DNA from: Parelaphostrongylus tenuis | Lineage: Eukaryota > Nematoda > Chromadorea > Rhabditida > Metastrongylidae | Direction: 5' to 3' | Length of the DNA: 64,000 bases | Assembly (NCBI GenBank): GCA_019055375.1 | Contig: JAHQIW010000101.1 | Coordinates: forward strand, 1-64,000 | Part shown: positions 1-64,000 of the stretch, one piece after another | Numbering within the stretch: position 1 is the stretch's first letter | Layout of the letters: each line of letters opens with the position of its first letter | Notes under the pieces: generated by a model | Seen by the model: the letters and a program-made list of their open reading frames with translations, nothing else | Told to the model about the DNA's origin: nothing | Database searches by the model: none | Program-made: the position numbers and the translations under genes

Positions 1-451
1 CGAGTTTATGAGCGCGATAGTGATTTGTTGCTTGAGAGACGTGTACGTAAAAGATGATGATTTTTACTTCTACAGCATTTCGACAGGTCTTTCTAAGCAA
101 ACAAGTACATTCTTGAACTTTCCAAGATTCGAAGTTTACTACCTTGCAGAAAGTCTAGTGAATTTCCTACTGCAGCAAAAAATCTCCTTTGAAAATCTCT
201 GCCCGACATTAAAAGAGCTGAAAGATTCCTATATTAACAGGAAAAGAAAAGTAAGATATACTACTGCTTAACCTCGAATGACAGCACCGGAGAATAGACA
301 TTGCGTGATTGAAATGACATGAGTGTGTCTAGTTATCAGATTTAGGAATACGCTGTATTAAGCCTCTCCGTTCGATAGCTTTTCCATAGACCTTGCTGAA
401 AGAGTAATAATGTGATAAGAATATAGCATGTTTTGAGATATCAAGCCGCGG

Positions 452-620
452 TGATTTATTGCTCGGCATCAAGTCTTCTATAGAGGAGTATAGCCTCGAG
501 GGATCGGCTGAACCGAATGCAGTGGTACTGATGAGTCCGGTAGGAAGAAACAGGCGCGCCTGCAAGGCTTAGGCCTAATAGCTCAAAACGTGTTCTACCC
601 TTAAGCTGTTCTAAGTTAAT
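452..620 (+). repeat. Dispersed repeat with decayed hammerhead-like core (copy 1)
   Basis: This stretch is missing from the opposite palindrome arm, so it is an insertion. It holds CTGATGA at 528-534, a short GTCC/GGA hairpin, GAAAC at 547-551 and a palindrome CAGGCGCGCCTG just after. That is the order of a hammerhead ribozyme: core box 1, stem II, core box 2, self-complementary stem III. The base closing stem II is A instead of C, and the expected U before the cleavage site is C, so it is probably inactive. Related copies lie near 40128 and 44300. It may be a non-autonomous hammerhead repeat distinct from the 270-bp family. Confidence 0.5.
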
Positions 621-637
621 TTATTTGATGCATCACC

Positions 638-885
638 ACCGTGTTTTTCTTCTTTTTTTTTTCTTCGATGTGCGGATCCCAGTAATTCTAGCATTAAATT
701 GGTTTTTTCTTCTTCTTAAACGGGATACTGGTTAAGCAAGTCTACTTGCGATCTTGAGGATGGCCTTACTGTGCCGTTTTATAAGACGTTATGTTGACTG
801 CTGGTGAGAGGAGGGAGGTGAAGCTCGGATCCGCGCGCGCCGCGATGAGCCTCGCAACTGCTCGGCCACGGCGCTCCCATCAAGT
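638..885 (-). repeat. tRNA-derived SINE, family A
   Basis: Read on the minus strand it starts with a tRNA Leu/Ser-like head: GTGGCCGAG-type A box near 865 and GGATCCGAGC-type B box near 830, ending in pyrimidine-rich sequence (640-700). The same element occurs at 6603-6860 at the mirror position of the other arm, so it predates the inverted duplication. A related copy is at 58225-58420. Confidence 0.65.
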
Positions 886-886
886 T

Positions 887-1125
887 AAATAATGGCAAGA
901 TGTTTTATAATAAGTCTTATGACTGCGTAGCATTAAGTACCACAATCCAGTTTTTGTTCGCTGCCTATTCATTTCATCATAGCTGGGTAGTGTGCGAAAT
1001 CCAGCCATGTTGATGCTGAGATACAGGTAAACGTCAAAACTCACGTTCTGCACTTGTTCAGCTGCACTTGTGCAAAACTTCTCAGCGACTTAACGTCTTG
1101 TTAGAGTGATACGCATTCAATTAAG
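887..1125 (+). repeat. Dispersed repeat U (copy 1)
   Basis: This block resembles 45960-46430 and 48950-49390 (same strand) and 6370-6600 (opposite strand, mirror copy in the palindrome). A shared anchor is the stretch near ATGACTGCNTAGCATCAAGTA. No coding frame survives in all copies. Class unknown. Confidence 0.55.
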
Positions 1126-1719
1126 ATTGTAAATCAGTGTTTGAGTGCACTAATTACATCTCTGCAAGTTTCCCACAGGCAGAATTATTCAAGGTAATCA
1201 TTCCCTCACAAGCAACACTCCTATGCGGTGAGAAATTAATCAGGCACATAAGCTAAGATTTATGAACTAATAAGTGTAGGGAATATATTATATTAGTTGA
1301 CGCTCAACACAATGATTTACGTCTGATTAGTAGCTAATAGAACACAAAAACTACAGCACATGCCGCAAAACCTTTTCAGGACCACAGTTTGGATTGCCAG
1401 GCACAGGGTATTGGGAAAGAGACAGAGAAACGTCACTGTAGCACTTTTACTACACTTGATTTTGAAAATTTTACCAGTGAAAAAATCCAGTATATATCGA
1501 CATAAGCCGCTGATCAACACTATGCTTGAGACTTGATAAAATGCATAATTTGAAGAGCAATTTTTTCCCCCATGCACAGAATCTTGATAAAGTGTGCATT
1601 CCTCAGTACAATCAAAATTGGCTGTATATGAAGAACGATTCATGGTCATTGATTATCCGCATGTGATTATTTTATCCAGAAAGACTAATTTCCGTGCAAT
1701 AATAAACCGATTAGAACAT

Positions 1720-1729
1720 TTCTGAAGTC
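1720..1729. repeat. Target-site duplication, left copy
   Basis: TTCTGAAGTC immediately precedes the hammerhead array and is repeated exactly at 3511-3520 after it. The other palindrome arm has one related copy at the corresponding place (near 5775, reverse strand, TTCTCAAGTC), which serves as the unoccupied site. Confidence 0.85.
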
Positions 1730-1837
1730 AGATCAAAACTATATCAAAAGATCGACTGTTTTGAAACCCCCAAAAAACATTCAATATAGTTCCAAAAAAA
1801 GAATGATTTAAGCTCAAAAAAGGGGTTGGTAAGCCCA

Positions 1838-1885
1838 GGGTCATACACCGGTGTTTCGGAGGTTCGTCCTCCTCATCAGTGACCC
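1838..1885 (-). ncRNA. Hammerhead ribozyme, type I, unit 1
   Basis: On the minus strand: stem I GGGUCA, core CUGAUGA, stem II GGAGG/CCUCC with a 5-nt loop, core GAAA, palindromic stem III CACCGGUG, then UA and the second stem I strand UGACCC. Predicted cleavage is after the A of UA (between 1844 and 1843). All invariant bases are present. Confidence 0.93.
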
Positions 1886-2107
1886 CCGCCCCACATTCAG
1901 CCCTGCATTGAAGCAAGGAGGGTGGCGTATGTGGTGATGGCACAGTGTACTATGACACTGTACCATCACCACCTCTCAGTCGATAGATTTTTGCTGTTAG
2001 ATCAAAACTATATCAAAAGATCGACTGTTTTTGAAACCCCCAAAAAACATTCAATATAATTCCAAAAAAAGAATGATTTAAGCTCAAAAAAGGGGTTGGT
2101 AAGCCCA

Positions 2108-2155
2108 GGGTCATACACCGGTGTTTCGGAGGTTCGTCCTCCTCATCAGTGACCC
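2108..2155 (-). ncRNA. Hammerhead ribozyme, type I, unit 2
   Basis: Identical core and stems to unit 1, 270 bp further on. The self-complementary stem III is only a few pairs with no real loop, so activity may depend on pairing between two ribozymes, as proposed for other short-stem-III hammerheads. Confidence 0.93.
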
Positions 2156-2376
2156 CCGCCCCACATTCAGCCCTGCATTGAAGCAAGGAGGTGGCGTATG
2201 TGGTGATGGCACAGTGTACTATGACACTGTACCATCACCACCTCTCAGTCGATAGATTTTTGCTGTTAGATCAAAACTATATCAAAAGATCGACTGTTTT
2301 TGAAACCCCCAAAAAACATTCAATATAATTCCAAAAAAAGAATGATTTAAGCTCAAAAAAGGGGTTGGTAAGCCCA

Positions 2377-2424
2377 GGGTCATACACCGGTGTTTCGGAG
2401 GTTCGTCCTCCTCATCAGTGACCC
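2377..2424 (-). ncRNA. Hammerhead ribozyme, type I, unit 3
   Basis: Same complete core: stem I GGGUCA/UGACCC, CUGAUGA, stem II, GAAA, CACCGGUG, UA. Predicted cut is between 2383 and 2382. The spacing from unit 2 is 269 because one G is missing near 2190. Confidence 0.93.
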
Positions 2425-2469
2425 CCGCCCCACATTCAGCCCTGCATTGAAGCAAGGAGGGTGGCGTAT

Positions 2470-2511
2470 GTGGTGATGGCACAGTGTACTATGACACTGT
2501 ACCATCACCAC
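2470..2511. other. Long hairpin in each 270-bp unit
   Basis: GTGGTGATGG-C-ACAGTGT pairs with ACACTGT-A-CCATCACCAC around a loop of about 6 nt, with one mismatch in an 18-bp stem. It recurs in every unit at 270-bp spacing and, more degenerate, at 18834-18880. It lies opposite the hammerhead in the unit, so a unit-length RNA would fold into a rod. Confidence 0.8.
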
Positions 2512-2646
2512 CTCTCAGTCGATAGATTTTTGCTGTTAGATCAAAACTATATCAAAAGATCGACTGTTTTTGAAACCCCAAAAAACATTCAATATAATTC
2601 CAAAAAAAAGAATGATTTAAGCTCAAAAAAGGGGTTGGTAAGCCCA

Positions 2647-2694
2647 GGGTCATACACCGGTGTTTCGGAGGTTCGTCCTCCTCATCAGTGACCC
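2647..2694 (-). ncRNA. Hammerhead ribozyme, type I, unit 4
   Basis: Complete and identical to unit 3. Confidence 0.93.
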
Positions 2695-2916
2695 CCGCCC
2701 CACATTCAGCCCTGCATTGAAGCAAGGAGGGTGGCGTATGTGGTGATGGCACAGTGTACTATGACACTGTACCATCACCACCTCTCAGTCGATAGATTTT
2801 TGCTGTTAGATCAAAACTATATCAAAAGATCGACTGTTTTTGAAACCCCCAAAAAACATTCACTATAATTCCAAAAAAAGAATGATTTAAGCTCAAAAAA
2901 GGGGTTGGTAAGCCCA

Positions 2917-2964
2917 GGGTCATACACCGGTGTTTCGGAGGTTCGTCCTCCTCATCAGTGACCC
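2917..2964 (-). ncRNA. Hammerhead ribozyme, type I, unit 5
   Basis: Complete and identical to unit 3. Changes between units fall outside the ribozyme. Confidence 0.93.
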
Positions 2965-3186
2965 CCGCCCCACATTCAGCCCTGCATTGAAGCAAGGAGG
3001 GTGGCGTATGTGGTGATGGCACAGTGTACTATGACACTGTACCATCACCACCTCTCAGTCGATAGATTTTTGCTGTTAGATCAAAACTATATCAAAAGAT
3101 CGACTGTTTTTGAAACCCCCAAAAAACATTCAATATAATTCCAAAAAAAGAATGATTTAAGCTCAAAAAAGGGGTTGGTAAGCCCA

Positions 3187-3234
3187 GGGTCATACACCGG
3201 TGTTTCGGAGGTTCGTCCTCCTCATCAGTGACCC
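3187..3234 (-). ncRNA. Hammerhead ribozyme, type I, unit 6
   Basis: Complete. This is the last full direct unit; in the ribozyme-sense direction it is the first to be transcribed. Confidence 0.93.
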
Positions 3235-3414
3235 CCGCCCCACATTCAGCCCTGCATTGAAGCAAGGAGGGTGGCGTATGTGGTGATGGCACAGTGTACT
3301 ATGACACTGTACCATCACCACCTCTCAGTCGATAGATTTTTGCTGTTAGATCAAAACTATATCAAAAGATCGACTGTTTTTGAAACCCCAAAAAAAAAAA
3401 CCAAAAACGAAAAA

Positions 3415-3460
3415 TGATGAGGAGGACGAACCTCCGAAACACCGGTGTATGACCCTGGGC
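3415..3460 (+). ncRNA. Truncated, inverted hammerhead copy
   Basis: Plus strand: TGATGA, stem II, GAAA, palindromic stem III, UA and UGACCC are present, but the first C of CUGAUGA and the 5' strand of stem I are missing. It therefore cannot fold as a full ribozyme alone. It begins the 96-bp inverted piece (3415-3510) at the right end of the array. Confidence 0.8.
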
Positions 3461-3510
3461 TTACCAACCCCCTTTTTTGAGCTTAAATCATTCTTTTTTT
3501 GGAATTATAT

Positions 3511-3520
3511 TTCTGAAGTC
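3511..3520. repeat. Target-site duplication, right copy
   Basis: Exact repeat of 1720-1729 directly after the array. Confidence 0.85.
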
Positions 3521-3689
3521 GTTTAAAGTAGCATGATTTCAAAAAATGACTTGTAATAGAGATCAGCAAATTTAGTGAAGTTAATTTCTGCTCATTTCAA
3601 AGAAGCTCAAGCGTGAACACTTCTCGCTCAAAGTATGATCGCTTTCAGAGTAGATATTCAATTGAGTCCATAATGATTACACGATGACT

Positions 3690-3890
3690 ATAATTGTTTT
3701 TACCTTTGTCACCACAAATGTCGTTGGGGACAAGAACATAAGGGCCGGGAATATTTACTGCTGCAGATCAGGGGATAGCAATAAAGTATTCAGACAGGGT
3801 AATGCTAAGTGTTATGCTGAAACTCTTTAACGTTACTCTGGAGTCTACCATTGCAAAGGGATTTCTGTTCACAAAGTGAAATATTAGTTT
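3690..3890 (-). pseudogene. Decayed coding-like block, left-arm copy
   Basis: The minus strand reads a frame similar to the open frame at 5407-5622 but contains a stop where the other copy has IPCSAAL (TGA for TGC). Retained words include LKSFSITL, FIAIP and GPYVLVPNDICGD. I do not recognise the family. Better amino-acid than third-base agreement between the arms would support past coding. Confidence 0.35.
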
Positions 3891-3910
3891 TCTCTTCCGT
3901 CTAGGTGCAA

Positions 3911-5380
3911 TTGGTGGGTAATATCAATAAAGATATCAATGACAATATGAAACGCGCCAGTTTTCGTGAGTATCTGGCATTTCCTTTGAAACGCCGGATT
4001 CTAGGAGGAATAATTGGCAAATTGCCTACTACAAATAGCTTTAGAAACCTCTTTTCTTTCAGCTCCGGAAATTTATTATCGATTAAAATCCTTGTAGTGA
4101 CGATAAAATTAGGTCTTTCAGTAGAAGGCTGCCACACCGTGATTATAGGTCTTCGCACTCGTCGTGCGACCATGTCGCGTGCCGCGCCCTGATTTCAACC
4201 TGGTCGCCAAGAGGTTAAGCTCTGAAGAACAAGTGTGTCGTCAGGACGTCAATTATTATGCTTAGTGGATTTTGTCGTTACCAGCCTCTTGATTGTTTTC
4301 TGAGAAATGCTGTGATTTGAAAGAATGCCGATGTTGATAGGTTACCGATTCTGTAACTTATCGTTTGAACGATATCGGCGGTAGGCGAGTTAATCAACTA
4401 GTTGTGTAGATGAACTTTCATTAGGTACACTTATATTAGAATATTTTCGATTAATACATTTGGCTGCATGATGTAGAGAACAATATATAGAACTCTTGTT
4501 CGATAACGTTCTCTTTTCATGAATTTTCATGAGAGAATGCGATCTGAAGCACAATCACATGAATATCAAGATGCGAGCAAAACCTCGGGTCTCAGTTATG
4601 CCTCAAACTTGTGTTTGTTATTTTTGAAGAGTCGAGTGTTAACCACTTTACCTAACGAAGGTCCTCCTGCTGACCTTTTTCTCTTTTTTTATTCGGTGTC
4701 CAATAGTCCCGAAAAAGCTTTGTTGGTTACTCATTCTGGGTCCTACTGCAGTAGAGGGGATAGTGTTAAAAATTTCATCTTTTGATGAAAATACGAATTT
4801 CCGCTAGCCATTGGAAGAGCTAACATTGTGTCATTTATTAAGAAGGAACTCAAATCTAATGGCTTACTTTGCTGCTGATGAGCAGCTCTATGATGCACCT
4901 ACTTAAAATTGCTGAACATTTTTCTGCCTTGTTTTAGAGAAAGGCTTTCAGATAATATTAAGTTTCAGTCTTGAAGTGCATCAAGAACTTCTGCGCGCCT
5001 TTTGAAGCCACAAATATTTCTATGCTGGCCATTGATTTCATCATTCGCAGTTGTTCGATTAAAAACAAACTCGTTCAAAATGCAAAACTTCTTGAGTTTC
5101 AAAGGGTAGAGATTATTCAGAAGCAAGACGTGGATTAATATCAGTGATCAAGATTTCTGGGCGACCGTTGAATCAACGCCCACCTTAACAGATTTGTTTT
5201 TGAATGCATGTGTATGAGAAAGCGTGTAATTAATAAGTTAATGACCGCAAATTAATCAAAATTCCTAAGTACGGAATGACTTGAAAATTATTCCAGCTAT
5301 ATTGATTGCATACCAGCTACATTTTTAGTTCCACCACCTTCACTGCTCACTTCAGGCTGCTAAACATTTTTAACGCATTG
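3911..5380. other. Unique loop of the palindrome
   Basis: About 1.47 kb separating the two arms. It holds open frames on both strands at 3901-4192 (90 residues minus, basic, ends ISLLILPTNCT; 95 residues plus) and at 4519-4785 (88 residues plus). None shows a family motif I recognise and overlapping frames cannot all be real. No RNA gene or repeat was identified. Confidence 0.5.
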
Positions 5381-5406
5381 TTGCACCTAGACTGAAGGTG
5401 TAAATA

Positions 5407-5622
5407 ATGTTTTACTTTGTGAACAAAAATCCCTTTGGAGGGGGAGACATCAGAATAACGTTGAAGAGTTTCAGCATAACACTTACCATTAGCCTGTCTA
5501 AATACTTTATCGCTATTCCCTGCTCTGCAGCACTGAATACTCTCGGCCCTTATGTTCTTGTGCCAAACGACATTTGCGGTGACAACGATAAAACAATAAT
5601 CGTTACCGTGTTGTCATTATGA
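5407..5622 (+). CDS. Unrecognised 71-residue open frame, right-arm copy
   Basis: Open frame starting MFYFVNKNPF and ending VTVLSL. It contains LKSFSITLTISLSKYF, IPCSAALNTLGPYVLVP and NDICGD. A homologous but stop-containing frame lies at the mirror position 3690-3890, so this could be an exon of a duplicated gene. A hydrophobic stretch around residues 24-45 hints at a membrane protein. No family could be named, and splice borders are not convincing. Confidence 0.3.
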   Translation: MFYFVNKNPFGGGDIRITLKSFSITLTISLSKYFIAIPCSAALNTLGPYVLVPNDICGDNDKTIIVTVLSL

Positions 5623-6369
5623 ACTTAGCTTCAATATCTACTCTGAAAACGATCACACTTTGAGCTGCAATTGCTCACGTTTGCGCTTCTTTTAAATGCG
5701 CAGAAATTTACTTCAGTAGATTTGCTGGTTTCCATTACAAGTCATTTTTCAAGAGCACGCTACTTCAAACGACTTGAGAAATTTTCCAACCAATGATCGC
5801 AGGCAGTTTAGTCTTTCTGAATAAAATGATTACATGCCGGATAATCAATTGACCATGAACGTTCTTCTTAAATATCCAATTTTGATTCAACTGAGAAATA
5901 CACACACTATCAAAGATTCTGAGCACGGGGGGAAAAATGGCTTGGCAAATTGTTCATTTTGTCAAGCCTCAGGCACAATTTTTATCAGCGTTTTGTGTTG
6001 ATAGAAACTAGCTTTTTACACTCGTAACCCTTTCAGGTCCAAGTGTGCAAAAGTGGTACACTGGCCTCTCTCTTTCTCTTTCCCAATACCTTGTGCCTGG
6101 CAATTCAAACTGTGGTCCTCATAAGGTTTTACGGCATGTGCTGTAGTTTTTGTGTTCTATTGACTACTAATCGGACCTAAATCATTGTGCTGAGCGTCAA
6201 CAGATATGAGATAATCCCTACACTTTCTGGTTGATAAATCAGAGCTCATGTGTTGGACAAAATTCTCACAACGGAAGAGTACCGCTTATAAGGGGATTGA
6301 TTACCTTGGGTAATTCTGTCTGTGGGAAATATGCAAAGCTGTAATTACTGCCCTTAAACACTGATTTAC

Positions 6370-6600
6370 AACTGTAATTGATAACGTATCACTCCAACAA
6401 GATATTCAGTCATTGAGAAGTTTTGCACAAGTGCAGCTGTAGAACGTAGCTTTGACGTTTGCCTGTATCTCAGTCCATGTGGTTGGAATTCGCACACTAC
6501 CCTGCTATGACAAAATGAATAGGCAGCAAACAAAAGTTGGAATATGGTACTAAATGCTACGCAGCCATGACACTTATAGGAAAATCTTGCCATTAATTGA
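6370..6600 (-). repeat. Dispersed repeat U (mirror copy)
   Basis: Reverse complement of 887-1125 in the other arm, and similar to 45960-46430 and 48950-49390. Confidence 0.55.
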
Positions 6601-6602
6601 CT

Positions 6603-6860
6603 TAGTGGGGCGCTGTGGCCGAATAGTTGCGAGGCTCATCGCGGCGCGCGGGTCCGAGCTTCACCTCCCACCTCTCACCAGCAGTCAAGAATAACGTCCT
6701 ATGGAACACCACAGCAAGGCCAACCTCAAGATTGCAAGTGACTCGCTCAACCAGTATCCTAAGTTGTTCAAGAAGAAGACGAAAAATTATTTTGATGCTA
6801 GAGGTACTGGGATCCCAAGAAGGGAAGAAAATAGAAGAAAAAACTGATGATGATGCATGA
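6603..6860 (+). repeat. tRNA-derived SINE, family A
   Basis: Starts GGCGCTGTGGCCGAATAG (A-box like) with GGGTCCGAGC (B-box like) about 30 bp later, as in tRNA Leu/Ser genes, then an unrelated body ending purine-rich. Mirror partner of 638-885. Confidence 0.65.
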
Positions 6861-7206
6861 CCAGATCACCGTGGCTTAATGGCTCAAACATGTTATAACC
6901 TTATCACATTACTACTGTTTCAGCAGGTTCTCTGAAAAAGCGGTCGAACGGAGAGATTTAATACATTGTGTTTCTACTTCTCATAACTTGACACGCTCAT
7001 GTCATTTCGATCACGTAATGTCTATTCTCAGGTGTTGTCGTTCGAGATTAAGCAGTAATAAATCTTGCATTCCTTTTCCTGTTTATATATGAATCTTTCT
7101 GCTCTTTTCTAATGCCGGACAAACATTTTCAAAGAAAATTTCTTGTATGATTCTTGATTATCTTCTTTGAGCAGAACACGAGGTGTTACATCAAACTTTA
7201 TTCGAT

Positions 7207-7241
7207 AGCTGACGTTTCGGCAGTTCGCCTTCTTCAGAGCC
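7207..7241 (-). ncRNA. PLE hammerhead core, pair 1 minus copy
   Basis: Minus strand: stem I GGCU/AGCU, CUGAAGA, stem II GGC/GCC, GAAA, minimal ACGU stem III, then C. Fits the hammerhead motif known from PLEs; predicted cut is after GUC at 7211/7210. Confidence 0.72.
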
Positions 7242-7443
7242 TGGAAAGGTCAAAATGTTTGCAATACAATCAGTCAAACACCTCTATCACTTCTTTAGAA
7301 AAAATCACCAGATCTAGATTTCAATCGCATCAAGCAAAATCAACACTCCACATACTCACCGCTTTTTATGTGTGTTCCACTGAATGATCCAAGTGGAGAT
7401 CACCGGAAAGAGAGACACATAGGCTCGTAATGCACCCCACCCA

Positions 7444-7932
7444 TCAAAACAACAGTCTTATATACTGGCTCATATCACGAGTGTTTACGAGGCATTCCTC
7501 CCTGCGGTTTATGGTTGGATTGGCCGTATTAATCCAAAATGCTTCCAAGATCTTTCGCGCTGATGTTTTTTGCTCCTGCGCAAGGATGGTGATTTCGATT
7601 TCAAAATCAACTCCGTCGTGCTTCTGTGCTCTATGCGTCCCTAGCGGTGTGTTTCGTCTATTAAGACGCTTGTCAGCTAGGTGTTCTTCTATGCGTGCAT
7701 AGAGCGGCCTACCCGTTTCGCCTATATATTTATCACTACACGCTTTGCAAGAGATTAGGTAGACTGTACCTACGCTCATGCAATTACCGCCTCTGCCGTT
7801 AGGACATATTTTACAATCTTTCGTTATGCAGAGACGGTCATATAAGCGGTTGCGAACTAATTGGCGTTTTAGAGCATTCGGTAGCATTTCTATAATGGCA
7901 CCGATTGCTCTAAACCCGCTCTTTTCAAACAT
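7444..7932 (-). pseudogene. PLE C-terminal region with GIY-YIG endonuclease (pair 1 minus copy)
   Basis: Carries the cysteine cluster (CKICPNGRGGNC), the GIY-YIG signature as VYLISC followed by KYIGETGRPLYARIEEH, and the terminal RREECLV / SQYIRLLF block. It was once continuous with the reverse transcriptase frame at 8064-8762, but small indels near 7930 and 8075 break the frame relative to the plus copy. The enzyme would nick DNA for target-primed integration. About 97% alike to 10600-11158 by eye. Confidence 0.85.
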
Positions 7933-8063
7933 CGTTTTATAGCTGTACTAATCTCATTTGAATAGAACGGGATGATAAACGGGACTTTCCTTTCATTCAA
8001 GTTTTCGTTCGGAGGCGCATTATTTCCTCTAAACTAAGCCGAGGGGTTACAAATTCGTATCCA

Positions 8064-8762
8064 TTATAAAGTGGCTATTTCCCGAGCCAGTTTCACGGAT
8101 TCTACTCTCTGCTCCTCCCCGGTACATACATTGGCTGCTGTTCGAATTATGTTTTTTACTAGCGCCTTTTTCGTATGTGAGGGATGAGATGAGAGATAGT
8201 GAACCAGGATATTCTTATTACTTGGCTTTCGGTACCACTTTGTTATGTAGCCGCTCTCAGTGAAGTTTATTTGCACGTTCAAAAATGGGAGCCAATCGTC
8301 TTTTGGTAACTCACGGGTGAATTTTATATACTCTGACTGTTCATTCAACAATCTAAAACAATTATCTAGCTCCTTTTGAGTGGAACAGATAACCAAACAA
8401 TCATCTATATACCTACAGTAGAGTAACGGCCGGAGATCCATCACTGGTGCTTCCACTTTAGACATAAAGGCAATGGCCAGGCTAGGTGCCAGTCGCTGTC
8501 CCATTGCCAGCCCTCTGGTTTGAGCATAATAATTCCCGGACCATCTGAAGATTGAGCAGTTCAGGCACTCTTTTAGTAGGATCATGAACTGCTCAATCGT
8601 CAAGCCATACATGTTTACAGCTCCCTGGTGTTGTATAAGAAGCTCATGTGTGGCTTGCAATGCGGAGTCATTCGACACGTTGGTATATAAAGCAGTGACG
8701 TCGAATGACTCCATTACGTACGCGTTGTTCGGGTTCGCGTTACGTAGACGATCCAGGAACAT
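8064..8762 (-). pseudogene. PLE reverse transcriptase (pair 1 minus copy)
   Basis: Starts MFLDRLRNANP; motif A SFDVTALYTN, motif B GLAMGQRLAPS and catalytic YIDD are all intact, but one extra A near 8074 shifts the frame after LAREIAT, so the endonuclease part is lost from this reading. It corresponds to residues 1-230 of the plus-strand copy at 9839-11158. Confidence 0.88.
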
Positions 8763-8872
8763 CTGAGTGCTCGTCAGATGGGCTGGAATGTGTCACTAGC
8801 AACTGGGATGTTATTAAAGTCAAGAACCATGCTATCCTATCCGTCGGTCCGCCTACACAACTGATGATAGGT

Positions 8873-9363
8873 CTAACTTTGAAGTATCGATGGATCGTTA
8901 GACATCAGATCATCAGTGGATACTAACTTATGTGTTTTTATAAGCAAGTATAAGACAGGACATGTTGGTGACTGGATTTTTAATTGAGAAATGATAGATG
9001 GTCTTAAGCCTGCCGCTTTTGCCGTACGGACCCACTCACTGTTTAATTTGCGGTTTTGCCTTTTGAATTCCTTTACAGAAGATGATCGGTAAAGCGAGGC
9101 ATCTTCGAGATGCTTGTTCGTTATTGCGATATCTAACTGTCGAGGAATCACAACAAATTCTCCACCCTTATCACTAACTGATAGCCTTATCCTACCTTCG
9201 CTTATCAACTCTCGAACCTCTTTCATGCCACGTTTTTGTAGTTCGGTGAGGTTCGATTGATATCTTTTCCTGCTATAGTGAGTGAGGGTTCTAAAAGTTT
9301 CGTCCGCAAATTTCCGGAATTTTCTATCTACCTCCTCGTTGGGGTCTTGTTGTCTATAGAAAA
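8873..9363 (-). pseudogene. PLE N-terminal part (pair 1 minus copy)
   Basis: Reads QDPNEEVDRKFRKFAD, then KEVRELISEGRIRLSVSD and PRQLDIAI, a conserved PLE block ahead of the RT fingers. It ends at a frame break (SILQS then stop) shared with the plus copy. The open frame extends to 9487 only because it runs through the palindrome centre into the antisense of the other copy; that extension is not PLE protein. It holds 5' sequence absent from the plus copy. Confidence 0.8.
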
Positions 9364-9374
9364 AAAAACGTGGC

Positions 9375-9728
9375 ATGAAAGAGGTTCGAGAGTTGATAAG
9401 CGAAGGTAGGATAAGGCTATCAGTTAGTGATAAGGGTGGAGAATTTGTTGTGATTCCTCGACAGTTAGATATCGCAATAACGAGCAAGCATCTCGAAGAT
9501 GCCTCGCTTTACCGATCATCTTCTGTAAAGGAATTCAAAAGGCAAAACCGCAAATTAAACAGTGAGTGGGTCCGTACGGCAAAAGCGGCAGGCTTAAGAC
9601 CATCTATCATTTCTCAATTAAAAATCCAGTCACCAACATGTCCTGTCTTATACTTGCTTATAAAAACACATAAGTTAGTATCCACTGATGATCTGATGTC
9701 TAACGATCCATCGATACTTCAAAGTTAG
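9375..9728 (+). pseudogene. PLE N-terminal part (pair 1 plus copy)
   Basis: 117 residues beginning MKEVRELISEG and ending SNDPSILQS. A one-base shift at about 9718-9722 separates it from the next block (VRPIISCVGGPTDR), and a second shift near 9815 precedes MFLDRL. The start is a truncation, not a true gene start. Confidence 0.8.
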
Positions 9729-9838
9729 ACCTATCATCAGTTGTGTAGGCGGACCGACGGATAGGATAGCATGGTTCTTGACTTTAATAACATCCCAGTT
9801 GCTAGTGACACATTCCAGCCCATCTGACGAGCACTCAG

Positions 9839-11158
9839 ATGTTCCTGGATCGTCTACGTAACGCGAACCCGAACAACGCGTACGTAATGGAGTCATTCGA
9901 CGTCACTGCTTTATATACCAACGTGTCGAATGACTCCGCATTGCAAGCCACACATGAGCTTCTTATACAACATCAGGGAGCTGTAAACGTGTATGGTTTG
10001 ACGATTGAGCAGTTCATGATCCTACTAAAAGAGTGCCTGAACTGCTCAATCTTCAGATGGTCCGGGAATTATTATGCTCAAACCAGAGGGCTGGCAATGG
10101 GACAGCGACTGGCACCTAGCCTGGCCATTGCCTTTATGTCTAAAGTGGAAGCACCAGTGATGGATCTCCGGCCATTACTCTACTGTAGGTATATAGATGA
10201 TTGTTTGGTTATCTGTTCCACTCAAAAGGAGCTAGATAATTGTTTTAGATTGTTGAATGAACAGTCAGAGTATATAAAATTCACCCGTGAGTTACCAAAA
10301 GACGATTGGCTCCCATTTTTGAACGTGCAAATAAACTTCACTGAGAGCGGCTACATAACAAAGTGGTACCGAAAGCCAAGTAATAAGAATATCCTGGTTC
10401 ACTATCTCTCATCTCATCCCTCACATACGAAAAAGGCGCTAGTAAAAAACATGTTTCGAACAGCAGCCAATGTATGTACCGGGGAGGAGCAGAGAGTAGA
10501 ATCCGTGAAACTGGCTCGGGAAATAGCCACTTATAATGGATACGAATTTGTAACCCCTCGGCTTAGGTTTAGAGGAAATAATGCGCCTCCGAACGAAAAC
10601 TTGAATGAAAGGAAAGTCCCGTTTATCATCCCGTTCTATTCAAATGAGATTAGTACAGCTATAAAACGATGTTTGAAAAGAGCGGGTTTAGAGCAATCGG
10701 TGGCCATTATAGAAATGCTACCGAATGCTCTAAAACGCCAATTAGTTCGCAACCGCTTATATGACCGTCTCTGCATAACGAAAGATTGTAAAATATGTCC
10801 TAACGGCAGAGGCGGTGATTGCATGAGCGTAGGTACAGTCTACCTAATCTCTTGCAAAGCGTGTAGTGATAAATATATAGGCGAAACGGGTAGGCCGCTC
10901 TATGCACGCATAGAAGAACACCTAGCTGACAAGCGTCTTAATAGACGAAACACCCCGCTAGGGACGCATAGAGCACAGAAGCACGACGGAGTTGATTTTG
11001 AAATCGAAGTCACCATCCTTGCGCAGGAGCAAAAAACATCAGCGCGAAAGATCTTGGAAGCATTTTGGATTAATACGACCAATCCAACCATAAACCGCAG
11101 GGAGGAATGCCTTGTAAACACTCGTGATATGAGCCAGTATATAAGACTGTTGTTTTGA
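9839..11158 (+). CDS. PLE reverse transcriptase with GIY-YIG endonuclease
   Basis: 439-residue open frame, the longest in the window. The RT lies at about residues 1-210: motif A SFDVTALYTN (19-28, Asp21), motif B GLAMGQRLAPS (84-94), catalytic YIDD (118-121), then FLNVQI and KWYRKP. A cysteine cluster (C312, C317, C320, C328) leads into the GIY-YIG nuclease (333-420): VYLIS, KYIGETG, Arg357 in YARIEEH and the late EAFW Glu. Product: retrotransposon polymerase that primes on nicked DNA. The first part of the protein is separated by two frame breaks (9729-9838), so the copy is probably defective, although the enzymatic frame itself is intact and may be recent. No own promoter was seen. Confidence 0.93.
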   Translation: MFLDRLRNANPNNAYVMESFDVTALYTNVSNDSALQATHELLIQHQGAVNVYGLTIEQFMILLKECLNCSIFRWSGNYYAQTRGLAMGQRLAPSLAIAFMSKVEAPVMDLRPLLYCRYIDDCLVICSTQKELDNCFRLLNEQSEYIKFTRELPKDDWLPFLNVQINFTESGYITKWYRKPSNKNILVHYLSSHPSHTKKALVKNMFRTAANVCTGEEQRVESVKLAREIATYNGYEFVTPRLRFRGNNAPPNENLNERKVPFIIPFYSNEISTAIKRCLKRAGLEQSVAIIEMLPNALKRQLVRNRLYDRLCITKDCKICPNGRGGDCMSVGTVYLISCKACSDKYIGETGRPLYARIEEHLADKRLNRRNTPLGTHRAQKHDGVDFEIEVTILAQEQKTSARKILEAFWINTTNPTINRREECLVNTRDMSQYIRLLF

Positions 11159-11360
11159 TGGGTAGGGTGCATTACGAGCCTATGTGTCTCTCTTTCCGGT
11201 GATCTCCACTTGGATCATTCAGTGGAACACACATAAAAAGCGGTGAGTATGTTGAGTGTTGATTTTGCTTGATGCGATTGAAATCTAGATCTGGTGATTT
11301 TTTCTAAAGAAGTGATAGAGGTGTTTGACTGATTGTATTGCAAACATTTTGACCTTTCCA

Positions 11361-11395
11361 GGCTCTGAAGAAGGCGAACTGCCGAAACGTCAGCT
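11361..11395 (+). ncRNA. PLE hammerhead core, pair 1 plus copy
   Basis: GGCU, CUGAAGA, GGC/GCC stem II, GAAACGUC, AGCU in order on the plus strand, 200 bp after the RT-GIY-YIG stop codon. Identical to 7207-7241. Confidence 0.72.
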
Positions 11396-12229
11396 ATCGA
11401 ATAAAGTTTATGTAACACCTCGTGTTCTGCTCAAGAAGATAATCAAGAATCATGCTGAAGCATGCCGAGGTTAATAGACAGTCGGTCTTGGGAATTGTTA
11501 GAAAAATTTTTTGTTTTAGTAAGAATTTTTACTAGACCTTTTGCTATGGTAGTAAATCTTGAATCTTGAAATGTCTAGGAATGCACATGTCTGTTTAGAA
11601 AGACCTGTCGAATTGCTGTAGTAGTAGAATTCACCATCTTACACGTACATCGCATATTATCGCCCACATATTTCGGAAGACAGAGTTCCTCCAGCTGACT
11701 ACTAATATTCATTCGAAGATGTAAATATCGAAAATCCAAAATTTTCTATATATTACAAAAATCCTTTCCAGAACACTGCAACAGAGGAGATAAGTCTGTA
11801 TTTTCCAAACGTGTAGTTCATGCAGGACAAGGATTTCACAAACTATCATTATCCATCCGATAGCGCAAATTTCGGCAATTCTAACACTGTATTTGTCTTT
11901 TGAAAGCCGTGTAATTGCACTTGCATCAGAAAAAATTGACCTTGAAACACGTCGCGCACAAATTGTCGACTAGTGTGTGTGACTGATTGTAGATCGATAA
12001 ACCGCGAAGAGCTGGCAATTGCTCACGCAACGCTATTCACGTGTGGCGCACAATTCTTACAACTGAATTTGGGATTTTATTCAACACTGTTAGGAAAAGA
12101 TGGACAAAACGAGTGAGTCTGATACTCCAAGACTTTCTCTACAAACTTTGCTTTTCGCGCATAGGTTTAGATGACTTCCAGTGGTCTCGTAAGCGCTTTC
12201 TCTAGTGTTTCCATGAACGCTGATTTATG

Positions 12230-13065
12230 TGATTTGGTCAGTAGATGTTGAAATTTTCGTTATGGGATTGCTTCAGTATTGAACCTAATAGAATCGGAAA
12301 TCAAACTTGACCCACTCACGATTCTCATTCAATGGTGGTAGTTCAAACTTAGAATGCGATAATATTCCTGCGACTTCCACTTTTTCGACTGAGCATACAT
12401 CTTGTTCTATGAGTTTCAAAAATCACGATGCAGAGTATGCCTTAACCTATTGTAAAACATCTCGGAGCGAATACATCTCCGGAATGGATGGACCACTTTG
12501 CGCCCGCCTAGACGAGTACCTGGTCGGAAACTTGAAACAAAACAAAACGTCTTCTCTTTGCACCTTTGTCTAAATGCCAGAAACCCAAGAATAAATTACA
12601 AGAATGAGTGCCTCATCATCAGATGTGATGTTCCGCCATTTCTTATATCGACTTTTTGATATGAGCCAAGCACAATCCTATTCAATGTGAGACCTTTCTC
12701 GGCTTATCTCTCGTCTCCAGTAGATAATTAAATATATTGAATTATAAAATAATGGAAAATGTAAGTCATAATGAAGACGTAAAAGGAGCAAAACAGTAAG
12801 TGATTTGAAGAAGCCACACACGTTTGAATTTGAAAGATTATCTATCATTTTCCTTTGCTGAGGTTATGAGAATACTTCAACAAATTCATTACGCTTCAGT
12901 TTGACGCTTTCATTCCGAATGCGATACCTCCGAAAGCTGTGCCATAGTTTTATTATACTGTGTTATTTTCAATTGGTTTTGCTGTTAACAATTTTGTATT
13001 TTTCAACAATAAAAAACACTAAATTATACCGAGGTGAATAGATAGTCGTTTCTTATAGTGTGGTC
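12230..13065 (+). mobile_element. Decayed PLE 3' part
   Basis: The plus frame from 12307 retains degenerate GIY-YIG words (GPLCARLDEYLVG for GRPLYARIEEHLAD). A second piece (NPRINYKNECLI, about 12585-12650) matches the PLE C-terminus. The family 3' motif follows at 13027-13060 (ACCGAGGTGAATAGATAGTC). Several frameshifts; no RT part remains. Confidence 0.65.
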
Positions 13066-18500: not shown

Positions 18501-18833
18501 TTAGCATTCCCTCCCTCAGATCTGATGGCTAACGTTTCGGCGTTTTCCCTTTGGAGCCCAGGCGTAGTATGCCATGCAGTATTTTTTTTTTGCTAATAAT
18601 TCGTATATGTACTAAAAGGCTGATGTAAAACTCACCCTAGAAGATGAATCTGCGATAAGGTGCCATATTATTTGCTATGTTCAAACCTTCCCTCTTTCCA
18701 CTTATTCTCAAACTCTTGCGGTTTATTCACAAAGCCCTAAGGGCTTTTGGCGCCATTTTTGATTCTCCATGGTATCGACTGATTCTAAAGCCTCGCAATA
18801 AACATTTAATACAAATTTTTCTTTGGTACTGAG

Positions 18834-19040
18834 AAGTGGTGATGGCACAGTGTAATTGTACACGGTTCCCTCACCACATACGCCTCCCTCCTTGCTACAA
18901 CAGTTCTCAATGTGGGGCGTGGGCTACTGACGAGAGGAGCGAGACCTCCGCAACACGCGTGTATAGCCCTGACGCACCAACCTCTGGTAAAGCTTCAAAC
19001 ATTCCTAAAAAAGTGATTCTTGGTCCAAGTTTCTTACTTG
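18834..19040 (+). mobile_element. Diverged single copy of the hammerhead repeat
   Basis: About 200 bp matching the minus-strand consensus of the 270-bp unit: hairpin part (GTGGTGATGGCACAGTGT), CACATACGCC, TGTGGGGCG, hammerhead, then CACCAACC and CATTCCTAAAAAA. It is a lone, older unit inside a PLE relic and not tandem. Confidence 0.78.
18921..18969 (+). ncRNA. Hammerhead ribozyme relic with compensatory stem changes
   Basis: GGGCUA, CUGACGA, stem II region, GCAA in place of GAAA, palindrome CACGCGUG, UA, UAGCCC. Stem I differs from the array copy (GGGUCA/UGACCC) at two positions with both strands changed so pairing is kept. Stem III also changes as a pair while remaining self-complementary. 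The GAAA to GCAA change should impair cleavage. Confidence 0.75.
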
Positions 19041-19399
19041 AACCTCAAACCCGCCACTACTGTATATTTCTGCTCCAAGTGCACCTAAGGGTGTATTTGC
19101 TCAACTTTCTATGTAATTGATTTTCGATAAGGACTCAGAATTGTCTCTTGTTCTCCCAATTTCCCCATTACCACATGTAGTGCAAGAGATCTTGTACAGA
19201 GTGCCTGAATTTGTGCAGTCTTCGTTTCTACCACTAGAGCATAACACACGATCTTTTGTCTTACAAGTGGATCGAAACCAAGCCGCAGCGTAATGTGTTG
19301 GGTGGAGCTTCAATAATTTCTACAGAGTTTCTCAGACCACTCTTTTTAGACACATTTTACTTGCAGCTCTTACCTCAAAAAGAGGTGTCTAAATAACAA

Positions 19400-19900
19400 T
19401 GGTAATGAAAATTCTATAAGAATTTCACAAGTTCTGGGCAAAACATTATCTCACAGCTTTCTTCAGAGCCGCTTGTATGACCGCTTATGTAAGGAAGAGG
19501 AATGCATGATGTGCCCTAATGGTAACGACGGAGTCTGTAGAAGTTCAGGCACATTATGCAAGATCTCTCGTGTGATATGCGGAGATGATAGGCGAAACTG
19601 AAAGAACACTTCGGATCAGCATCAAAAAAACAGCTAGATGGGAAGCCGAATAGTCGGACAAATCATCACATGGGTGCGTATGGGCTAAAAGGCAGTAGTT
19701 GCGAAGGCTTTGACGCGCTGTAAAAATCCTAGGGTAAGAGTCAAAACCGTCGGCGCGGAAAACACCTGAGGTTTGATGGACGAACCGCAAGTGTTCAAGG
19801 ATGAAAGGGCGAACATCCAATAGGGGTTCCTTTCTAATTGTCAGAGTAGTGAATTGACTTCGCATTGAACTTTCATTATGCACACGAAAGGTTAACGGAA
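19400..19900 (+). mobile_element. Decayed PLE, plus half of an old head-to-head pair
   Basis: The plus strand reads QSRLYDRLCKEEECMMCP, NGNDGVCRSSGTLCKIS and, after a shift, a remnant of the IGET motif and SARKT-like words, matching the linker and GIY-YIG part. With the minus relic at 18510-19395 it repeats the head-to-head layout of the younger pairs. Confidence 0.62.
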
Positions 19901-26480: not shown

Positions 26481-27500
26481 GCTAAATTTCCTCCATCACC
26501 ATCATTTGATATCCAGAGTAAGAGTAAACCAAGATTTTATGCACTATAACTAGCGTCGCTGTGATAAATTCTTGTAAAATACTTCTGAGATATTCCAGCA
26601 GATTTGCAGTAACGAATACTGTTTGAAACAAAACAAAATTTCAAATCTTTGCGAGTGTTAAAAAACATTTTCCTTAATCCAGCGCATTCCATAACAGTTT
26701 TCAGTAGAAAAAAATGAGATATCAGGAGCAAGAATGTTCTAAAGTGAAGCAGCTTTGATTATTTGACTAGATAATACGGTAGATAATTAACTTTACAAAG
26801 TTTCGCCACAAATTCATCAAAGGTCAAATTGCTTATTTTGAAACGACTCCTAGATAAGGCCAACGAAGGACTGATTTATTTCCTCTCAAATTTGAGTTCT
26901 TACAATGACGGTCTTACAATGACAATGACGGTCTTACAATGACAATGTAATACTCGAAACCCTATCTAAAGTTCATGCCTGGTGATTGCACTCTTACATC
27001 TCAAACATTTCTTTTTGATACTTCGAACAAGCAAAGAAAGCTCTTTATTTAAATTTATACCTACGTTCTTTCACCTACAGCACTACTACTAAAAAATGAA
27101 ATATTCTTATTTGAGATATTGTTTTGATTACGAGAAGAGAAAGGAAATTTAAAATGCTTCGTGGGTCCGTAGAATTCGTGAAGACTGACCGTTCAAGTAT
27201 GGAAACATGCAAGTAGTTTGTTATAAAATGGAACTCTTCTCTGTCTTGGAAAATTCGTTTCCGTCATCATATGTCACCTTGTCAAGGCAAAAATTTTCTT
27301 GAATTATGACCCAGTAGTTTTGTTAATGCGTTTCGTGACTCTTTTGGTTTATGAGTGAAATACTGTCCAGTTTTCTTATCGCATTATGCAGAAAAGCAAA
27401 ATTAGAGCAATTACTGAGCGCGCTAAAGAAAAAACTGTGAAGCAATTGACTCTTGGTAACCGTGAAGGATTTTCGGCAACTATAAGCTCTAAAGCCTTAC

Positions 27501-27661
27501 AATAAGGTTACAGGTGCAACCCAGAAGACGAAGACAAGTAGAATACCCCAATTGGCAATGCCGTGAGAGATACATAACAGGCCAAACGAATTCCGCATCG
27601 CCGGATTGCGTAGTACTGCGGATACAGCGGTGCCATTTGAGACCAAACCAAACACTCCTAT
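27501..27661 (-). CDS. srx serpentine receptor gene, exon 2
   Basis: 161 bp, acceptor TTTTTAG before 27661, donor TTATT|GTAAGG after 27501; phase 0 in, phase 2 out. Encodes the end of TM1 and TM2: IGVFGLVSNGTAV, LRNPAMRNSFGLLCISHG, IANWGILLVFVFWVAP, a textbook Srx block (GxxxN in TM1, SFG.LC after the first loop). Same length as exon 2 in copies B (35616-35776) and C (63077-63237). The frame is free of stops here; overlapping frames in other phases are shadows. Confidence 0.85.
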
Positions 27662-27829
27662 CTAAAAACACATGTTTTCTTTTAATACTTAACAAGAACA
27701 AGCCACACTACTTTTTTGACCAAAATACTGAGCAGACAACGTGGTTTTGCATTCCATAAACCGATACACAATACGACTACTGGCAATGATGATACAATTT
27801 CGTTACACGGCTTAGTATGAGGAAACGCC

Positions 27830-27965
27830 GGAAAGAGTGAAATCTGAGTTCGAATCCCGGCTGACGCATACGTTTTTGCACAGTCACATATTGGGTACAC
27901 TAATAACATCATACCACTGCAAGTGGCAGTCAAAATAGAAAGATTTATGTTTCACATTATCGCAC
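27830..27965 (+). repeat. tRNA-like SINE, family C (5'-truncated)
   Basis: TTCGAATCCCGGCTGACGC (T arm plus acceptor) followed by the family tail TTTTTGCACA and CCACTGCAAGTGGCAGTC. Same tail at 51900-51990. Unique to copy A, in srx intron 1. Confidence 0.65.
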
Positions 27966-28099
27966 GGATTTTGTTACTTATTTGAGAATTTTTTCTCCAT
28001 TTTCCACAAAAATCTAGGCTTTTGTAATGTAGTTGTAAAGAAAACTTATTAGCGTTCTAAAGTTTAGACTTAGAATTTTATTTCGTACTGCTAGATAAA

Positions 28100-28150
28100 A
28101 TAGCTATCAAGCCTAAGCCTGAGCCTAAATAGTCTAAGACTAAGCAGAAA
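28100..28150 (-). repeat. Degenerate TTAGGC-like run in srx intron 1
   Basis: Plus strand shows AAGCCTAAGCCTGAGCCTAA and further CTAAG repeats, i.e. TTAGGC-type hexamers on minus, the nematode telomere unit. Equivalent runs occur at 35130-35170 (copy B) and 62590-62640 (copy C). Confidence 0.55.
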
Positions 28151-28938
28151 AAGCATACGATCTTGTAGAGAAAATCTTATAGTATCAGTATTGTAGGTTT
28201 TTTCTGCAGATTCTTCCAAAGGAGAAGAAATTCCATGCTAAGTAATGAAAATTGTGCGCCATTTGCGAGTCTCGCCAACGCTATCGATCGCTATGGATAC
28301 CACTGCCAGTCACACCCAACCACGCCCAGCCCAGCCCAGCACACACATTAAATCATCAAAAAGTGAGCCGCGTATAGCGTAATCTCATTTTCCCTGCTAC
28401 ACTGCATTGGAACGCTAGTGCCAGAAAAATAAGCACAGCGTTGGACTCACTGAAACATACTCTATCGAATGGTTTCTTATAATTCCATGGAACAGCTCTG
28501 CCTTGCGAGATATACACGTATGTAAAATAGAAATGTTTCCTTTCCGCTATATCCTCATAAAAAAGTTTTTTTAAACCGAGCATGTGTAGCGGTAGTCAGA
28601 GATTTGATTTTTCAAATAATTATATATACATATAAACAACAATATTATCAAATTTTTTGTCCAGCAAGAGAAGTCATTTTCCATGACGTGTAGTCTAGCG
28701 GAAAGATCCGCAATGGTTTATAGCTGAATCTTTTATTCCTCATTAAGTCTGTGAAGTTGAGAAGTGTCATGGCCATTAGCAGGGTTGGATAAAAATACGG
28801 TGCATATACATAATCTAATAATCATAATGAAAGCTTTAAAGCGAATTGATTTACAGGTCACTCTCGAAGATTAATCTCTTGAAATTTTCAGGAGATCTAT
28901 CACATTTACAACCCAAAAAACGGTCGCTTAAGACTCAC

Positions 28939-29010
28939 CACGGTCATGATTATCGACACCGCTAAGTTTTCAGAGTGAACACACAGCGAAGTGCACAAGA
29001 AGTTTGCCAT
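28939..29010 (-). CDS. srx serpentine receptor gene, exon 1
   Basis: 72 bp: ATG at 29010, MANFLCTSLCVH then ENLAVSIIMTV, ending ACCGTG|GTGAGT. The ATG directly follows AATTTCCAG, which fits a trans-splice (spliced leader) acceptor. Joined to exon 2 in phase 0 it completes TM1 (NLAVSIIMTV-IGVFGLVSN). Homologous 72-bp exons with the same upstream CAG are at 61721-61792 and 39333-39404. Product: 7TM chemoreceptor-type protein at the plasma membrane of nematode sensory cells (family knowledge). Four exons in compatible phases support a gene that is, or recently was, functional, though the 3' exons are missing. Confidence 0.75.
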
Positions 29011-45252: not shown

Positions 45253-45365
45253 GCGTCAGTAGTGCAACGGGTTAGAACACACTCTCCCGGATAGAATCAG
45301 GTGCGGGTTTGAGTCCCGCCTGACGCGAAAGTTTTGCACATCATTCCACATCACTGGGTAACATT
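45253..45365 (+). repeat. tRNA-like SINE, family C, copy 2 with cloverleaf
   Basis: 45253-45326 is 74 nt with a perfect 7-bp acceptor stem (GCGTCAG/CTGACGC) and a perfect T arm (GCGGG-TTTGAGT-CCCGC) at correct spacing. The D stem has 3 pairs and the anticodon stem one mismatch; the loop reads CCCGGAT, with C at position 33 where U is required, so it is unlikely to be a working tRNA. Followed by the SINE tail. Confidence 0.68.
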
Positions 45366-53315: not shown

Positions 53316-53499
53316 ATTGGCAACCGATAAAACCCATGACCGGAAAAGAAGAACAATCGATTGGGAAAGAGATACCAACCTCGTGAAACTTTAAATAAAG
53401 ATTAGTTTTCTGAACCTTCCTTTCATTCTTAAAGCTTTATATTGTTAATATGCCGAGGTTCCAGGGAAGTCGGTCTTTCGAATTGTTACAAAATGTACC

Positions 53500-54055
53500 A
53501 GCTAAACATTTCCAGCTTATCAGGGACGTCTTATCGCTAAGGCAGAAAATCGTCTTAATTAGGCAGAAGACCTACTTTCTCAGCCGCTGCATGAAAAACA
53601 AAGTCATTCCTAACTTTATAACTATATAGAACATAGGAAGTTACATGAAATGTGCGGCTTACCAAATGATTCGCACCAAATACTGAACATTCACATGCGT
53701 TTATTACGCATTTGTCTACAAAATACACAGAACCAACTGTTCTCACTTCTGGAAAAATGCGTCTATAAAGAACATCACTGTGCTCAGTATTTGGATGAGA
53801 ATCTTTGAAAAAGATTAGTAGATGAGTCCATATCTGTTTGTGACGATGATGTGTCTGAGATAAAACAAAAGTTACGAAAAAAAACTTGAAAATCTACTAC
53901 GGGAGCTAAATTCGAATTCAAATTCAGGCTCAAAATGTTGAAGAAACCCCGCTTCCGGCAAATTTGAAGGGAATCTGAGGTAAAAGACGCGCCAAAACCC
54001 TTCAGAGTTACCATATTAACAGCCATAACCTCAGGATAGTGCACAATCACCATTC
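53500..54055. other. No gene recognised
   Basis: Frames at 53555-53746 and 53784-54053 (minus) show no motif. Confidence 0.4.
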
Positions 54056-56407: not shown

Positions 56408-56610
56408 ACTAGCAACCGAGAAAACCCATCGACCGATAGAAAGAACGATCGATTGGGAAAAAGATGCAAACTTCGTGAAGCTTCAAATAAAGATTACTTT
56501 TCTCAGCTTTTTCTCATTCTCAGAGTTTTTTATTATTAACATGCCAAGATTTCAAAAAAGTCGGTCTTTCGATTTATTTTTTATTGTGGATTTTGCAGAG
56601 TTATAAAAGG

Positions 56611-61720: not shown

Positions 61721-61792
61721 ATGGCAAACTTCTTGTGCACTTCATTGTGTGTTCACTCTGGAAACATAGCGGTGTCGATAATCATGGCCGTG
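61721..61792 (+). pseudogene. srx exon 1, copy C (donor lost)
   Basis: 72 bp, ATG after TTTCCAG: MANFLCTSLCVHSGN then IAVSIIMAV. The donor is GTG|ATGAGT, with AT where copy A has GT; a GCC|GTGATG site 3 bp earlier could rescue splicing in frame. Strong match to copy A. Confidence 0.65.
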
Positions 61793-63921: not shown

Positions 63922-64000
63922 CCCAAGATCGACGATCTATTAACCTCGGTATAATTTGAATAAATGAATAGTTTGTTCTGTTTAGCCGTTCCGAGGTGTT
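63922..64000 (-). mobile_element. PLE 3' end, continuing beyond the window
   Basis: Contains the shared 3' motif in reverse (GATCTATTAACCTCGG) and the CTGTTTAGC-GTT-CGAGG words that also follow the motif at 46480-46510. Confidence 0.55.

Follow-up and report, generated by a model that had tools for sequence, protein, structure and literature searches.

A tandem array of hammerhead ribozymes with Penelope-like ends, a probable retrozyme of a strongylid nematode

Hammerhead repeats of animals and the present array

The key papers on the hammerheads of Penelope-like elements (PLEs) are reportedly those of Cervera and de la Pena in 2014 and of Lunse in 2017. Non-LTR retrozymes of Metazoa are described from cnidarians, molluscs, and amphibians (coral, mussel, and axolotl), with rotifers, flatworms, annelids, crustaceans, and insects also named, in the excerpts of PMC7229834 drawn upon here. 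PLEs are proposed there as the partners of retrozymes, on the grounds that the two coexist and that each has type I hammerheads and a tandem arrangement; according to the relevant part of PMC7761336, no conserved motif reveals the autonomous partner of the metazoan retrozymes. The string "nematod" is absent from the main texts of PMC7229834, PMC4918200, PMC7761336, PMC6155905, and PMC3088659. No report of a natural nematode hammerhead or retrozyme was found in the open-access papers searched, as judged by their titles, the beginnings of their abstracts, and selected passages.

The array described here is located in a window of 64 kb, that is, the whole stretch of DNA that was analyzed. As in the metazoan non-LTR retrozymes of the PMC7229834 excerpts (i.e., tandem non-coding units of 150–450 bp with less than 50% GC, a type I hammerhead in each unit, target duplications of more than 4 bp, strong self-pairing of the RNA, and PLEs in the same genome), its units are of 270 bp with 44% GC, all six full units have the ribozyme, the duplication is of 12 bp, the RNA pairs strongly with itself, and PLEs are present. 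This agrees with the preliminary description, which had called the block retrozyme-like, in unit size, GC content, lack of an ORF, ribozyme, and duplication. The differences are the nematode host and the inverted border. Moreover, unlike the retrozymes without a partner-revealing motif in the cited part of PMC7761336, the array carries a stretch similar to the local PLE tails.

With PLEs that have minimal hammerheads, as far as the cited portions describe them (PMC11167929, PMC6155905, and PMC7761336), the array shares a hammerhead upstream of the tail, tailed and tail-less borders, and a duplication, and with the PLEs of this window a head-to-head arrangement. Unlike PLEs, however, its unit has no ORF, and its hammerhead stems of 5–6 bp are longer than the 3–4 bp of those of the elements designated PLE-A. 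The hammerhead satellites of newt, Schistosoma, and cave cricket are also tandem with type I hammerheads, and the weak stem III resembles that of the newt satellite (PMC6155905 and PMC4918200, both cited in part). In contrast to these satellites as described there, the array has inserted at a site whose paralogue is empty and has ends like those of PLEs, and unlike the Schistosoma repeat its unit contains no tRNA detectable by Rfam. Judged by its anatomy in the sequence, the array is a retrozyme of the known kind, with in addition a PLE-type end which is unreported in the parts of the literature examined.

The inserted block and its hammerheads

The tandem repeat at 1730–3396 has a period of 270 bp, 6.2 copies, and 99% matches (TRF). 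The block is composed of six full units (270 bp in four and 269 bp in two), after which a partial unit and an inverted partial unit are separated by a T-rich junction (table 1). With a longest stop-to-stop stretch of 68 aa in a tripled unit, the unit is too short to code, and it has no RT and GIY-YIG ORF of an autonomous PLE. The full units differ at six columns, all of them singletons.

Table 1. Coordinates of the array, its insertion sites, and the PLE features of the window
Feature	Position	Strand	Remarks
Whole inserted block, 1,781 bp	1730..3510	- (sense = minus strand)	
PLE-like tail at sense 3' border (AGTCGATCTT core)	1730..1768	-	tail profile match 1768-1744; stretch repeated in other units
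Type I hammerhead, unit 1 (stem I to stem I)	1838..1885	-	motif-plus-pairing scan and second descriptor
Type I hammerheads, other five units	2108-2155, 2377-2424, 2647-2694, 2917-2964, 3187-3234	-	
Inverted 5'-truncated unit	3415..3510	+	
Left target-site duplication ATTTCTGAAGTC	1718..1729	+	
Right target-site duplication ATTTCTGAAGTC	3509..3520	+	first bases possibly part of unit instead
Empty single-copy site, inverted arm (ATTTCTCAAGTC)	5771..5782	-	one mismatch to duplication
Second, decayed insertion	18774..19004	+	within decayed PLE ORF
PLE-A copy P1	7147..11510	7147-9237 minus, 9364-11505 plus	head-to-head; tail at right border only
PLE-A copy P2	21324..24500		head-to-head pair; tail at left border only
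Minimal PLE hammerhead	11361..11395	+	second descriptor
Identical minimal PLE hammerheads	C3 at 7237, 21459, 24408	-, -, +	second descriptor
PLE-A tail	11436..11514	+	tail profile
Other tail-profile matches	21386-21308, 52080-52003, 46490-46411, 53426-53506, 56517-56597, 63975-63896, 13019-13048		

A motif-plus-pairing scan of both strands revealed on the minus strand six identical and complete type I hammerheads, one per full unit (C3 at 1879, 2149, 2418, 2688, 2958, and 3228). Each consists of CUGAUGA, a 5-bp stem II (GGAGG/CCUCC), GAAA, ACACCGGUGU, and a 6-bp stem I (GGGUCA/UGACCC), with the cut predicted after A17; the conserved core bases and the stems are all present in every full unit. 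In the predicted fold, stem I is also extended imperfectly, and loop II is ACGAA. Stem III is a loopless palindrome. It is absent from the free-energy fold of the ribozyme alone, and two hammerheads cofold into a double hammerhead with a 10-bp stem III.

A second descriptor, with looser stems and tighter loops than the first scan, found 11 sites in the window (six in the array, four in PLEs, and one doubtful); 100 Markov-1 sequences of window length had no site on either strand. The six complete minus-strand hammerheads of a 270-bp repeat, as claimed in the preliminary description, are thus confirmed by TRF and by both motif searches. The covariance-model check that it suggested turned out otherwise: the Rfam hammerhead models match the array site far below their cut-offs. 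At gathering score, hammerheads are absent from the whole window, where a tRNA gene (45253–45327, 38.6 bits) is the only Rfam match, and at E≤10 none is found among the 40 rows listed for 1650–3600. For the 81 bases of 1820–1900, five rows were obtained, and the top two are hammerhead models that coincide in place and strand with the array ribozyme, namely RAGATH-1-hammerhead (15.6 bits, E 1.1, cut-off 56.3) and Hammerhead_3 (14.4 bits, E 0.75, cut-off 48.5), and only the RAGATH-1 alignment reproduces the fold described above. Therefore, the hammerhead assignment rests on anatomy and covariation and not on the model score. A similar Rfam search with the PLE-A hammerhead gave no hammerhead row, and the DNA patterns of the array and PLE-A hammerheads had no match in viral contigs, where nematode DNA is hardly expected.

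The RNA of one unit folds with a z of -5.19, none of 200 shuffles being equally stable. An 18-bp hairpin with one G-U pair is located at 1931–1972 and in every unit, and is partly kept in the diverged copy at 18.8 kb; it may function as dsRNA or bind a protein. Several microRNA models match it at chance level only.

The direct repeats said to bound the array are real, with a length of 12 bp. The claim of a single-copy site on the opposite palindrome arm holds for the site, which exists in one copy with one mismatch; the palindrome is not a perfect one, the arms being paralogues of 80–83% identity. In detail, 628–1729 pairs with 5771–6858 (79.7%) and 3509–3910 with 5381–5782 (83.1%), both in inverted orientation. 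When the flanks of the block are joined, they align to the opposite arm, the 12 bases being free of gaps; a gap of 4 bases lies about 10 bases further left. Insertion of the array into one arm would simply account for this arrangement, the alternative needing a precise loss from the other arm. The whole inverted repeat extends over 42–3910 and 5381–11649 (arms about 80% identical, spacer of 1.5 kb), with the array in one arm and the PLE copy P1 in the other. Its spacer includes a weak tail-like stretch (4313–4341, E 0.56).

The second insertion, at 18.8 kb, is formed by a 41-bp minus-sense piece (18774–18814), which corresponds to unit positions 55–94 with the tail core at its end, head-to-head with a plus-sense ribozyme piece (18828–19004), which is 79% identical to the unit and alignable to unit position 43. 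It has one tailed and one tail-less border, as in the array, with the borders at unit positions of about 43 (tail-less) and 94 (tailed) versus 62 and 114, that is, about 20 nt off. Two pairs of stem I and the innermost pair of stem III are changed on both sides with pairing kept; thus, all three changed pairs of these stems remain paired, which from a single copy is thin evidence of covariation. GCAA replaces GAAA in the core and stem II is shifted, so this ribozyme is probably dead.

The flanks of this insertion were joined in eight ways (four right limits by two left limits) and compared with the PLE protein. Both joins with the right limit 19000 gave a single alignment of 176 or 178 columns, which extends as far as the final residue of the protein (E 2e-19 and 3e-19, for a short subject and with composition correction off; internal stops and 6–8 extra residues at the join), and the remaining six break at residue 407, as a frame-dependent join predicts. 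The likeness TGATTCT...TGGT at the edges is an imperfect duplication at best. The decayed PLE fragment struck by the insertion lies at 19014–19586 and is itself head-to-head (minus 19376–19014, plus 19380–19586).

The movement of the array as a block, which the preliminary description had also put forward, is well supported at the sequence level by the 12-bp target duplication, the empty paralogous site, and this second insertion interrupting a decayed PLE ORF. That description did not include the inverted partial unit, the PLE context, or the diverged copy; the inverted end and the PLE-type tail are the more informative part.

Ends of the array and of the neighboring PLEs

The window contains many PLEs with RT and GIY-YIG. 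RT-coding ORFs are located around 9.8–11.2 kb and 22.9–23.5 kb, and the first of these (ORF 9809–11155) includes both domains according to Pfam. Among the eight ORFs of at least 150 aa, four were submitted to Pfam; two matched RVT_1, that is, PLE, and two had no match. The PLE protein gave 202 matches, and in the 120 that were listed, many of them nameless, every name is that of a strongylid nematode, in agreement with the host proposed in the preliminary description. The best of those listed is nameless, with 74% identity over the whole query, and the nearest named relatives by identity belong to Angiostrongylus, with at most 80% identity across 41% of the query.

The minimal hammerhead is placed upstream of the tail and is identical in four of the five PLE-A 3' regions, the fifth (52 kb) being altered in stem II. 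The hammerheads of PLE-B and PLE-C are recognizable in altered form. P1 and P2 have the tail (GAAGCATGCCGAGGTTAATAGACAGTCGGTCTTGG) on one border, and their other border stops short of it. The site of P1 is empty in the opposite arm (near 176–183), and the duplication of P2 is imperfect (about 20 bp, two mismatches), overlapping the end of the tail. A further pair at 52.6–53.5 kb also has one tailed and one tail-less border, with no readable duplication. Of six head-to-head loci, one of them at 19.0–19.6 kb, the other five were read by eye (the PLE pairs P1, P2, and 52.6–53.5 kb, the array, and the 18.8-kb copy), and in each of these five one border is tailed and the other tail-less. PLE copies in single orientation are found at 46.8, 52.0, and 54.3 kb.

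In the array, the six-unit arm ends exactly at TTTTGATCT. The inverted unit begins within the ribozyme core (TGATGA), passes the cut site, and has its tail-less end at GGAATTATAT(T), and the 5' parts of the two arms meet at the T-rich junction. Since the partial unit at the right end is in opposite orientation, both outer borders are 3' ends of ribozyme-sense RNA. No poly-A was seen by eye at either of them.

For the tails, a profile was built from five tails of PLE copies and one of the 63.9-kb element. No retrozyme was in the training set, and the profile was made post hoc, after the likeness had been noticed by eye, and run over both strands of the window. The matches were ranked as the six training tails, the PLE-B tail, the 13.0-kb match, and directly after them all seven array copies on the sense strand. 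The border copy (1768–1744) has an E of 0.02 and the six others 0.071–0.098, the next match being at 0.56; a second profile with the PLE-B tail added kept the order (0.019, then 0.11–0.14, next 0.9). The array match is short, about 25 nt at an E of 0.02–0.14 per window. With both profiles, one unit scored higher than all of its 3,000 dinucleotide shuffles (8.7 versus at most 7.0 with the first, and, closely, 8.3 versus at most 8.1 with the second). The 18.8-kb piece was not reported by the profile over the window. In pairwise comparisons the best match of the array tail is a PLE-C tail (score 56 versus 23–40.5 for the six others), and low-stringency BLAST of the unit against the PLE copies found only matches of 9–11 bases.

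The distance from the cut site to the tail core is 86 nt in the array versus 88, 90, and 90 nt in PLE-A. The tail-less border lies 62 nt from the cut versus 63 and 65, and the tailed border 114 nt versus 102 and 108, the PLE borders having been read by eye from imperfect duplications. The cut-to-core spacing is longer in PLE-B (149 nt) and PLE-C (155 and 156 nt); hence, the spacing of the array agrees with PLE-A alone, whereas its tail sequence is nearest to PLE-C. With a short match to a post hoc profile and with shifted borders in the 18.8-kb copy, the array fits the cis pattern of the PLEs, in which the tail and the tailed and tail-less borders are downstream of the hammerhead.

An isolated PLE-type tail at 13019–13048 (profile E 4e-4) resembles that of 63.9 kb, and no coding match to the PLE-A protein was found near it. 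The tail at 63975–63896 adjoins a 4.2-kb repeat (59733–63918 and 26775–30999, 80% identical), which is possibly a non-autonomous relative of PLEs; its ORF 61598–62173 has no Pfam family. A hammerhead-like match at 61009 on the plus strand (GCAACTGACGAGGC...) is probably due to chance, because its homologue at 29.7 kb, read by eye, has not kept the stems.

Proposed mobilization and its alternatives

We consider it likely that in this block a strongylid nematode harbors a non-LTR animal retrozyme, which is non-coding and is trans-mobilized by PLEs. Each 270 nt of a minus-strand transcript would include a type I hammerhead, and cleavage would release unit-length RNAs; given the loopless palindrome of stem III, it would probably take place in tandem dimers. 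The double-hammerhead cofold is in line with what the cited parts of PMC6155905 and PMC7761336 report of newt and PLE ribozymes, namely cleavage as dimers. A host ligase may close the unit-length RNA into a circle. The PLE protein would recognize the tail module about 86–114 nt downstream of the cut site and nick both target strands, from both of which reverse transcription would be primed. On one strand, synthesis would start at the tail end and copy more than six turns of the circle or a multimer; on the other, it would start at the tail-less site and stop after about 100 nt. The two cDNAs would join head-to-head, and fill-in would produce the 12-bp duplication.

The PLE protein of Anolis acts on both strands, by cleavage and by extension, and two internal cDNA start sites bound the tail (PMC11167929). 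The ribozyme cut is 26 nt and the start site 111–118 nt into the ORF (PMC11167929), that is, by subtraction, 85–92 nt apart; the array fits a similar rule. Against the proposed mobilization, insertion in vitro persisted in ribozyme mutants of the Anolis PLE, and RNA-seq ends were absent from the cut site (PMC11167929). We lean towards the wider reading that nematode retrozymes are SINE-like parasites of PLEs, the unit having a compact cis module (i.e., the hammerhead and then two reverse-transcription start sites about 60 and 110 nt downstream) which would come from a PLE end or have converged on it. The six-unit arm would then be rolling-circle cDNA off one target strand and the short inverted copy would be primed by the other.

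The template for the same retrozyme and PLE machinery could also have been a long transcript that an older tandem array produced and that stayed uncleaved, with no rolling-circle RNA and no need for the ribozyme to act. The cut site is crossed six times by the array and once by the inverted piece, as such a template would allow, and ribozyme mutants of the Anolis PLE retained insertion in vitro (PMC11167929). On the other hand, no variant is common to any two full units, which speaks rather for one circle copied repeatedly than for a diverged array as template (a weak point at 99% identity), and we regard the uncleaved template as possible but doubtful.

Twin priming by LINEs gives inverted 5' ends and duplications of 10–20 bp, with which the inversion and the duplication length of the array are compatible. 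In addition, the 15-bp duplications of Nematostella repeats have been likened to LINEs in the portion of PMC4918200 cited here. Nevertheless, it is improbable that target-primed reverse transcription with twin priming by a LINE took the place of PLE machinery: PLE-like border positions and a tail likeness would not be expected, and no poly-A was seen by eye at the borders. Least credible of all is an ordinary satellite, either expanded locally through slippage or unequal exchange or acquired as circular DNA, with the ribozyme as a passive relic, for which the 99% identity of the six units and the T-rich junction speak, against the 12-bp duplication with its empty site, a separate second insertion with the same end plan, and six complete ribozymes.

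If the block is a retrozyme mobilized by PLEs, its tail would be a motif that reveals the partner of a retrozyme. The question of which enzyme moves animal retrozymes would become testable through the common tail, the matching start-site positions, the empty site, and a defined RNA and protein. The array would add nematodes to the hosts of retrozymes and would give a cis signal for finding more of them.
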